Shown: positions 1 to 2,668 of the stretch, piece by piece | How the letters are laid out: every line of letters begins with the position of its first letter | How positions within the stretch are numbered: the first letter of the stretch is position 1 | Assembly: GCF_946481155.1 (NCBI RefSeq) | Contig: NZ_CAMLMK010000117.1 | Location: 1-7,905 of the forward strand | Reading direction: 5' to 3' | DNA: 7,905 nucleotides | Origin: an uncultured Flavobacterium sp. | GTDB lineage: Bacteria > Bacteroidota > Bacteroidia > Flavobacteriales > Flavobacteriaceae | Translations under genes and position numbers: made by a program | Notes under the pieces: model-generated | Databases searched by the model: none | Told to the model about the DNA's origin: nothing | The model's input: only the letters and a program-made list of their open reading frames with translations

Positions 1-1741
1 TTTCTCTTTTATTAAGCGCGTTTAAAATGCTATATCTTAAATCTTCAATTTTCTTATCAGCCTGATTAAATGCCTGATAACTTTTAATATCAAGGATATT
101 TTTATATTCATCCAATTTATTTTTTTTAAAACTAATGCCTATTCTGCTAAACAATTTTTGATACAGAATGTAAATTTTCTTTATATCAATTTCAGAAAAT
201 ATAGGATTATTAAAGATTGCATATCTAGAACTATCTAAATCACTATTATCAGCACGGGTAATATAATAATATCGATTATTAGTTTTTGAATAAATTTTAC
301 ACAAAATTGTATTACAACTATCTTTCTCATTTTTGAGTTTATTTACTTTTTGTTCTTCAGTAAACCCACTAGGGAATATTTCTGTATTAAAATACTGAAT
401 TTCATACCCCTTTATATTAGTTAACGCATCTAAGAAAACCTGTCTCCTTCTATCAGCTTCTTCTTTATTTGTATCTTGAATAGGATTTGCATTCTGAATA
501 GACTGCATGTAATTGTCAATTCTACCAAACTCACTTTCAGGATTAGTTTCTTCGTTTAAAGTTAATTCATATCTATCTATATATTCAGTAGGAATTCCAA
601 TGTATTTTACTTCTTCATCGTCTTTTTTTAATTTCTCTATTTGAATTTGTGGTTTGTCCTCAAAAGAGAAATGTTTTTGATATAATTCTTCAACTAAGGC
701 TTTTCCATCTTTAGTTCCTGCTTCATTTGAAGATACGTGAGAATTAGAATTTGGTTTAGTGTTTCTTCGTGTATTTTCAACCCCTCCTGTTGAATTTGAA
801 TTGGAAGTATTATTTTTTCTATGATCTCCAAAAGGCGCATATTTAATTTTGTCATATGGAAAAGTTTCTAATGTATCGAGGATTTCGTTTACGAGAAAAT
901 ATTTTTTTCCGTTTATTTTAAAGACATTCCCTGAAACCATCATTTTAAAGGGATGATCTTGTGGAAAAATAGTTTTTATTGGTCTGTAATAACCTGAAAT
1001 ATTATTATTACTTAAAAGGCAGTCTTTAAATTCTTCAATACAATCAAATGCATTTTTAATAAATGCAATCCTGAATATACATTCTATTTCACTCTCAGAT
1101 AATCCCTTTTTTATTGCTAATAAAGCAACTCTTTCTCCTTTCTCATTAGTCTTGATAGAATCATTCCGAGTAGCATTAAAAAAAAGGTTATTATTAGTTC
1201 TTTCATTTTTTTCATCAATTGATAAAAAATCAAAAAATAATGCTTTACTCAATCGGGATCCTTTAAGAAAAAAATATCTAAATACCTCATGGGAAGGAAC
1301 CAAAAAGTAATCCATCAAAGAATCATGGGAAGCTATTTTGTGAGCATTAGAATATATAAATTTTGGATTTATATTATTTGCAATAAAATTATCTTTATCA
1401 ATAGTGGTAATATCTGAAGATTTATTATAACCCAAAAGCTTATATATTTTATCCGATTTAGATTTTAAATCATTTTCTGCTATAGATAATATTTTGGGAG
1501 TTCTAACGCTTTCATAAGCGGGTTTGATAATTTTATTTTTATCATCAACGACGGTTCCTATCACCTTCGTTAATAATAAATTGATATTATGATTTTCTTT
1601 GAATATCCGTTCAGGTTCAACTATACTTTGATAATAAACTTGAACTTCTAAGTTACGATTGCCTTTATAAATCATATCATCGATAAAATGTACTTTCTTA
1701 TGATTTAAAATATTGCAATCCTTATTTTGAATATCTGACAT
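1..1741 (-). CDS. Probable TnsE-like transposition protein, 3' end outside window (partial)
   Basis: Reading the minus strand from ATG at 1741, the frame stays open for 580 codons to the window edge, so the C-terminus is missing. No signal peptide or membrane segment is seen, so it should be cytoplasmic. Residues 147-169 carry VPSHEVFRYFF followed by GSRLSKALFF, and residues 274-290 read FKINGKKYFLVNEILDT. After a Ser/Asn-rich linker (about 308-342), residues 488-510 contain YYYITRADNSD and then a Ser/Phe segment. I recall this layout (a P..E.FR..F..SS.L..AL block, a 'V.EI' block, then an [EA]DxSD block) from TnsE-type proteins of Tn7-like elements, which direct transposition to replication-associated targets through DNA structure and the sliding clamp. 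That is memory-based recognition, not an alignment. The gene starts about 65 bp inside the element end and reads inward, and it is clearly more AT-rich than comM next to it. I saw no DDE transposase or ATPase motifs. The alternative is a cargo gene of unknown function. Confidence 0.45.
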   Translation of the reverse strand, partial: MSDIQNKDCNILNHKKVHFIDDMIYKGNRNLEVQVYYQSIVEPERIFKENHNINLLLTKVIGTVVDDKNKIIKPAYESVRTPKILSIAENDLKSKSDKIYKLLGYNKSSDITTIDKDNFIANNINPKFIYSNAHKIASHDSLMDYFLVPSHEVFRYFFLKGSRLSKALFFDFLSIDEKNERTNNNLFFNATRNDSIKTNEKGERVALLAIKKGLSESEIECIFRIAFIKNAFDCIEEFKDCLLSNNNISGYYRPIKTIFPQDHPFKMMVSGNVFKINGKKYFLVNEILDTLETFPYDKIKYAPFGDHRKNNTSNSNSTGGVENTRRNTKPNSNSHVSSNEAGTKDGKALVEELYQKHFSFEDKPQIQIEKLKKDDEEVKYIGIPTEYIDRYELTLNEETNPESEFGRIDNYMQSIQNANPIQDTNKEEADRRRQVFLDALTNIKGYEIQYFNTEIFPSGFTEEQKVNKLKNEKDSCNTILCKIYSKTNNRYYYITRADNSDLDSSRYAIFNNPIFSEIDIKKIYILYQKLFSRIGISFKKNKLDEYKNILDIKSYQAFNQADKKIEDLRYSILNALNKRE

Positions 1742-1761: not shown

Positions 1762-1790
1762 TTTTCTCATTCACTTATGTATTTTCTCAT
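1762..1790 (-). repeat. Paired direct repeats, 20-bp period, probable transposase (TnsB-type) binding sites
   Basis: The nonamer ATGAGAAAA occurs on the minus strand at 1790-1782 and again at 1770-1762, exactly 20 bp apart. Similarity extends a few bases further as ATGAGAAAAtAcAT versus ATGAGAAAAaAtAT. Two DNA turns of spacing within the first 50 bp of a mobile element end is what TnsB/TniA/MuA-type transposases typically bind. The outer copy contains the TGA that ends the truncated comM reading frame. That these are binding sites is inferred from position and spacing only. Confidence 0.5.
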
Positions 1791-2668
1791 CGTCTCTTGT
1801 TTTTAACACTTCCTCCTCCAACAAGCGCTGCAGACGAAGCATTGTGATGCGGACTCCGGAACGGCCTCTGGTTCATCAATCCGGTTTCTTTTACTTTTCC
1901 GGCGACGCTGTGGATTTTGGTAGTTTCTAATGCTTCTTTCAATGTCATTGGCGGCAGGATGCTTGGTAAACGCTTGGCCAACATCGTCTTTCCTGCTCCC
2001 GGCGGTCCGATAAGTATTAGATTATGGCCGCCAGCCGCGGCAATTTCCATACAGCGTTTTATAGATTCCTGTCCGCGTACCTCCGCAAAGTCGAATTCGG
2101 GATAATCTAGTGTTTTGTAAAACTCTTCGCGGGTATTTATCACTGTGGGTTGCAACGTTCCTTTTCCTTCAAAGAAATCAATGACTTCCAAGACGTTTTC
2201 CACTCCGTAGACATCTAATCCTGCAACAATTGCGGCTTCTTTTACATTTTCTTTTGGAAGGAAAAAACCCTTATAACCCTCTTCTTTGGCTTTGATGGCG
2301 ATGGATAAGGCACCTTTTATGGGTTGTAAGCCTCCGTCAAGGGAAAGTTCTCCCATAATAATATACTTGGCAACTTCTTCGGTTTTGATTTGTCCGGTGG
2401 CTGCCAAAATTCCTACGGCAATGGTTAAATCATAAGCGGAACCTTCCTTCCTCAAATCGGCGGGCGCCATATTGATGGTTATCTTTTTTACCGGAAGTTG
2501 ATAACCGTTGTTTTTTAAGGCTGCAGCAATTCGGTAACTGCTTTCTTTTATGGCATTGTCGGGCAGTCCTACCAGATGGTACCCTACTCCTTTATCAATG
2601 TTTACCTCTACGGTAATGGTCGTGGCGTCTACTCCGAATACGGCGCTTCCAAATACTTTAACTAACAT
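1787..2668 (-). pseudogene. comM: comM 5' half, interrupted by the mobile element
   Basis: ComM/YifB is a hexameric AAA+ branch-migration helicase that helps integrate incoming DNA during natural transformation. The frame is 293 codons against roughly 500 for intact family members. Residues 1-170 form the N-terminal Lon-protease-like (ChlI) domain, opening MLVKVFGSAVFGVDA and containing NMAPADLRKEGSAYDL. The AAA+ domain starts at VRGQESIKR (197-205), with Walker A GPPGAGKT at 221-228 and the family motif RPFRSPHH at 268-275. Host sequence ends at ALVGGGS (281-287); the last six residues and the TGA come from the inserted element. Walker B (normally VLFLDELPEF), sensor residues, the arginine finger and the C-terminal domain are absent, so the product should not hydrolyse ATP. 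The remainder of comM should lie beyond the element, left of this window. Start ATG at 2668 matches the family's usual N-terminus. Confidence 0.92.

Follow-up and report, generated by a model that had tools for sequence, protein, structure and literature searches.

What interrupted the comM gene in the stretch of uncultured Flavobacterium DNA analysed here (7,905 nucleotides, hereafter the window), and where does the DNA beyond the break belong? We consider, with a probability of about 0.9, that a Tn7-like transposon of the cut-and-paste kind inserted in comM beside the GGGS codons, that the window holds its left end together with its first gene, and that it is a member of a Tn6022-related branch in Flavobacterium.

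The break in comM and the end of the foreign DNA

The interrupted comM gene (YifB family) lies on the minus strand, where its 5' part (1809..2668) comprises codons 1–286 and two bases of codon 287. The corresponding open reading frame (2668..1787, minus strand) encodes 293 amino acids, in which the comM part is followed by six foreign codons up to a stop at 1787; past ALVGGGS, whose serine is residue 287, it reads VKNKRR-stop. Positions 1–285 of the 499 in TIGR00368 align to residues 5–288 of this frame (349.1 bits, cut-off 362.4), and the Pfam family Mg_chelatase is matched in positions 1–96 of 207 only. Since the family models are matched well and only up to the break, the protein is cut short, not degenerate. 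The preliminary description, which had homology running through ALVGGGS and then lost, with a stop six codons on, was therefore accurate.

The comM genes closest to that of the window, at 97% identity, are those of F. saliperosum and F. cauense, which assigns the host to Flavobacterium. Among the 80 nearest comM loci in genome_contigs (83–97% identical), the frame is open through the break point to the normal stop in 79, and in the remaining one (L041) it is open until the contig ends. The motif reads AIAGGGS in one of these loci (L060), in which translation confirmed the open frame. The gene is also unbroken at this point in F. cauense itself (G002) and in G001, G013, and G227, with comM at least 95% identical to that of F. 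cauense. Comparison with uninterrupted relatives, as proposed in the preliminary description, thus gave 80 unbroken loci of 80, and the state held there to argue against an insertion, a truncated comM that is ancestral, was seen neither in these loci nor in the four F. cauense-like genomes.

The foreign DNA begins at position 1808, the base directly after comM stops (1809). Read away from comM, it starts with TGTTAAAAACAAGAGACGATGAGAAAATACATAAGTGAATGAGAAAA. Its terminal TGT (1806..1808, minus strand) opens the motif TGT-N17-GAGA, which is common to the ten ends placed in this study, and is followed by two TnsB-type repeats of 20 bp on the same strand: AACAAGAGACGATGAGAAAA at 1782..1801 (offset 7 from the end) and TACATAAGTGAATGAGAAAA at 1762..1781 (offset 27). 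A matrix that was trained without the window and G382, on 21 sites from G200, G136, G060, G307, and G317, ranks the second repeat as the best site in the window (15.16) and the first as the third best (10.37). Pairs of repeats that both reach at least 7 bits and lie 18–24 bp apart were found at 10 of 2,966,720 start positions on both strands of the 80 comM loci; the window has one such pair, at the comM break. In the training set, offset 27 occurs in three of five left ends vs none of five right ends, and the window end, with its sites at 7 and 27, looks like a left end by this pattern.

Beyond the break, G+C content is 26.6%, vs 45.3% in comM and 34.7% in the rest of the host part. The other genes of the window encode a CarbopepD_reg_2 protein, a histidine kinase, one protein each of the bacterial PH-domain and DsbD-like kinds, and a short protein that matches no Pfam family. 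The first gene of the element, 580 codons long and open at the window edge (1..1741, minus strand), is a candidate for a TnsE-type protein or a target selector. The TGT terminus, the regularly spaced repeats, and the AT-rich foreign gene pointed out in the preliminary description were all recovered, and the exact break, the TGT end, the two repeats, and the change in composition bear out its view of a transposon junction rather than a degenerate gene.

Relatives with transposition genes and their ends

Full-length comM matched 382 of 398 Flavobacterium genomes at E 1e-10. As candidates for a split gene, 46 genomes with weak or multiple matches were picked by eye from this list; several of them turned out to have comM interrupted by the end of a contig only. 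The 3' part of comM begins at most 9 bp from codon 287, directly after ...ACA, in G317, G307, and G060. Inside that ACA end, G307 carries tnsA, tnsB, tnsC, and tniQ on the strand opposite comM, and then a convergent gene of 553 amino acids without family. Pfam identifies TnsA (PF08722/PF08721), TnsB (Mu-transpos_C), TnsC (TniB), and TniQ in this genome. The same gene order is found in G060 and in G317, the latter read on two unjoined contigs; here Pfam identified TnsA of G317 and TniQ of G060, and the other genes were assigned by their similarity to G307. The convergent genes of these two genomes encode 553 (G317) and 594 (G060) amino acids, and those of G307 and G060 are related to each other (blastp 2e-6).

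Relatives of TnsB occur in seven of the 398 Flavobacterium genomes at E 1e-10, namely G307 itself and six others with identities to it of 73% (G317), 50% (G136), 49% (G200), 48% (G060), 31% (G147), and 33% over 120 residues (G374). A TnsB profile matched none of the viral_contigs and, at E 1e-40, none of 349 genomes of the family, for which empty answers carry no weight. G200 has one strong comM match, as G136 appears to, and the tnsA-tnsB genes of both lie beside a gene that resembles, by eye, a DUF4442-type thioesterase. This site is probably a second home of the same Tn7-like family.

A second, independent copy related to that of the window was found in G382, whose comM is cut 9 bp downstream of the window's break point by the same kind of end (TGTTAAAAA..., in a longer reading TGTTAAAAATATAAGTCATTGAGAAAA). 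Inside this end lie a PIN_12 gene and then a gene that runs to the contig end and whose product is 28% identical to the 580-aa protein over 277 residues. The remaining comM of G382 consists only of residues 430–511, on another contig, with no match from the break region to residue 430.

All ten placed ends fit TGT-N17-GAGA: those of the window and G382, both ends of G307, G317, and G200, and the right ends of G060 and G136. Counted together with these ten ends, it is present 45 times among 1,056,030 positions on both strands of the stretches compared. The motif was noticed after five ends (window, G382, and the right ends of G307, G317, and G060) had already been read off the comM break; it served, or was at least borne in mind, in placing the remaining five. 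The contig of G136 does not reach the left end, two candidates found by the motif alone leave the left end of G060 ambiguous, and one scanned strand of a 12-kb stretch of G147 has no such motif. Repeats in the left ends stand at offsets 7, 27, and 48 (G200), 7 and 27 (G317), and 7 and 47 (G307), and at 7, 27, and 47 or at 7 in the two G060 candidates. In the right ends, they stand at 7 and 40–50 in five of five. As a separate observation, the right junctions of G136 (L140) and G200 (L142-L143) both carry ATTTTTTGTAT beside the thioesterase-like gene.

Both ends are placed in G200, where ATTTT stands on either side of TGT...ACA, a 5-bp duplication that, being AT-rich, is weaker than five arbitrary bases would be. 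By analogy, the target duplication expected in the window would be CTTCC on the plus strand (1809..1813). With five bases assumed and the first base of codon 287 counted as 0, duplications would start at -9 (G060), -3 (window), -1 (G317), +1 (G307), and +6 (G382). This 15-bp spread falls within the Tn6022 target region of comM, and the attachment site described for Tn6022 extends across the point of insertion and overlaps with the codons for Walker B (PMC10293859).

The left junctions of G307 and G317 lie off GGGS, at comM codons 205 and 25, respectively, with well-formed ends and no 5-bp duplication, and the stretch of comM between the two junctions is missing in both genomes. The simplest guess is a deletion beside the left end after insertion. 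In the same two genomes (L124-L125 and L138), a small HigA-like helix-turn-helix gene, recognized by eye, is listed first inside the left end. In G060 (L126-L128), comM is cut near residue 219 and followed by genes that appear phage-like by eye, with the Tn7-like core at the far side.

Given the shared ends and the tns genes of these relatives, the end seen in the window is most likely the left one of an element of this kind, and the proposal in the preliminary description that a Tn7-like element cuts comM gains its support through G382, G307, G317, G060, and G200. By analogy with the relatives, the transposase genes and the right end of the window's own copy should lie outside the window: one would expect tniQ-tnsC-tnsB-tnsA to the left of position 1, followed by an ACA end and the rest of comM, so that the tnsA end would face the 3' part of the gene. 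In such an element, TnsB would bind to the arrays of repeats in the two ends and would excise the element jointly with TnsA, TnsC would connect these two proteins with the target, and TniQ, alone or with a partner, would direct insertion to a conserved stretch of comM. The insertion inactivates comM and should lower natural transformation in the host. Lower transformation would shield the element from removal by recombination. In Acinetobacter, insertion of AbaR in comM is reported to lower natural transformation (PMC7508600).

Other insertions in comM and rival explanations

Several other insertions were observed in comM of Flavobacterium. In eight genomes (G318, G104, G250, G156, G211, G266, G203, and G152; L084-L101), the gene is split near residue 280, between HHTIS and N, by islands of about 19–51 kb; in G152, about 720 kb separate the two parts of comM, which point in opposite directions. 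These eight splits were first taken for the same insertion as in the window and were set aside on account of their junction, which falls between HHTIS and N or similar. A serine-recombinase-like gene was found with hand-written expressions in five of the eight (G104, G156, G211, G266, and G152), and Pfam confirmed the one that was submitted (G104). Further insertions near residues 207–220 and 148 carry serine recombinases (Pfam Resolvase/Recombinase), and one near residue 200 carries a phage-type integrase (L117 and L118 in G042 and G268, L122 in G168, L115 in G041).

Such islands raise the question of whether a site-specific recombinase, rather than a Tn7-like transposase, made the break in the window. 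The tyrosine-recombinase element Tsy splits comM in the same region (PMC10293859), and large serine recombinase islands also hit this gene in Flavobacterium. However, in the text describing Tsy, the YRec gene is located downstream of the comM 5' part and inverted repeats went undetected (PMC10293859), whereas the window end carries TnsB-type repeats and the first gene matches no Pfam recombinase or integrase. The serine recombinase islands, for their part, enter between HHTIS and N, which is some 8 residues upstream, and their junction differs. An origin from a Tsy-type element or another recombinase island is thus very improbable.

Alternatively, comM could be a decaying or misassembled gene, its junction being taken from assembled sequence, with repeats that arose by chance. 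Against this, comM is well conserved up to one base, after which the composition differs; repeat pairs of the kind found at the break are as rare as given above; and in G382, a separate assembly, comM is cut at almost the same base by the same end, followed by the same gene family. We find this explanation scarcely credible. Nor do we give much more than a token chance to a Tn7-like element guided by CRISPR: some type I-B1 CASTs are on record as using comM for their att site (PMC11406308), but no cas gene was recognized by eye in the open reading frame lists of G307, G317, and G060.

The left-end gene and known comM-targeting systems

The 580-aa protein has a single homologue from three protein database searches, P0001, with 36% identity over 95%. 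No family was matched at E 0.001 in Pfam or NCBIfam, and none at E 1 in PADLOC; the best Pfam match, Glyco_transf_99, is sub-threshold (E 0.003). Relatives of the gene were found in none of viral_contigs, plasmids, and genome_contigs, and none was returned from 397 genomes of the family, whose empty answers carry no weight. A profile built from the 580-aa protein and P0001 matched two of the 398 Flavobacterium genomes, G382 strongly and G237 weakly; the G237 match (E 6e-5, 51 residues) was dropped as a membrane protein by eye. G382 is thus the only genome found with a relative of this protein, and its assembly, which is incomplete, gave no TnsB or TniQ match, so that the 580-aa family was not seen in one piece with tns genes.

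By its place and size, this gene could encode a TnsE-type protein. The TnsE of Tn6022 sits near the left end (PMC10293859), and TnsE homologues are described as almost universal in comM-targeting elements (PMC11406308). Sequence comparison did not show such a relationship: Pfam gave no TnsE match, hhalign of the 580-aa group against Tn7 TnsE stayed at noise level, and a structure model from the two-sequence alignment was unusable (mean pLDDT 29).

It is rather unlikely, in our judgement, that the 580-aa gene and the convergent genes of 553–594 amino acids in G307, G317, and G060 form an undescribed comM-binding target selector, which would replace TnsF and pass the site to the short TniQ; if so, targeting of comM arose yet again in Flavobacterium. 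In blastp, the 580-aa group met the tniQ-convergent proteins at E 0.008–0.010 (G060), 0.03–0.05 (G307), and about 1 (G317), and the scores for G060 and G307 were reached by 0 of 40 shuffles each. In a comparison with 150 natural proteins of Flavobacterium, taken from a set of 448, G060 alone beat all (29.3 vs 26.8); G307 (26.0) fell below the two best, at 26.8 each, and G317 scored 15.7. An hmmsearch of the 448 proteins together with the three convergent proteins and Tn7 TnsE had none of these four among the 12 matches listed. Homology to the tniQ-convergent proteins, with the natural-protein control exceeded by G060 alone, was not established.

TnsF is the comM selector of Tn6022. Plasmid locus L148 carries TnsA, TnsB, TnsC, TniQ, and a cysteine-rich gene of 476 amino acids, which by place and look is taken for TnsF. 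Among picked open reading frames of at least 60 amino acids in the stretches of G307, G317 (C77), G060, and G382 and in the window, no relative of this protein was found at E<1. The known home site of Tn6022 and the I-B1 CASTs is thus also used by a Flavobacterium branch whose cores yielded no TnsF, which suggests that comM is a recurrent choice of elements with Tn7-like transposases, serine recombinases, and tyrosine recombinases. The branch provides a test case for the way in which a short TniQ locates comM when no TnsF is recognizable, and it is relevant to the idea that mobile elements protect themselves by switching transformation off. A small TniQ is considered a hallmark of elements with an additional selector (PMC10293859). 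Transposons of the Tn6022 clade occur in Bacteroidetes, and comM is absent from the main text of that report (PMC8649781); no title among the literature matches listed, with subscription literature mostly outside their scope, concerns Tn7-like elements in Flavobacterium comM.

Among known systems, Tn7 resembles these elements in its TGT/ACA ends with repeat arrays, in a TnsA with both Pfam halves (as in G307), and in a 5-bp duplication (as in G200), and differs in its home site, glmS instead of comM, and in TniQ, which in G307, G317, and G060 has 321–326 amino acids, with none the size of TnsD seen there. Tsy (ZooTsy) splits comM close to the window's break, but is described as a tyrosine recombinase element without TnsB-type ends (PMC10293859). 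The likeness to the Tn6022/AbaR backbone of Acinetobacter extends to the same region of comM, near the Walker B codons in the window as in the Tn6022 family, and, in the Flavobacterium relatives, to the tnsA-tnsB-tnsC-tniQ order and the short TniQ. G307 shares 34% (TnsA), 38% (TnsB), 36% (TnsC), and 29% identity (TniQ, over 159 residues) with a Tn6022-type operon of A. baumannii, and the twenty best plasmid-borne relatives of its TnsB, with Acinetobacter elements among them, are 36–39% identical. In contrast, the host is another one, TnsF is operonic with tniQ in Tn6022 whereas the next gene past tniQ is convergent in G307, G317, and G060, and neither this convergent gene nor the window's 580-aa gene matched anything in the A. 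baumannii element. Judged from sequence, the left-end protein of no assigned family and the relatives without a recognizable TnsF appear to be new, and the home site and the core would be known ones, as in Tn6022.
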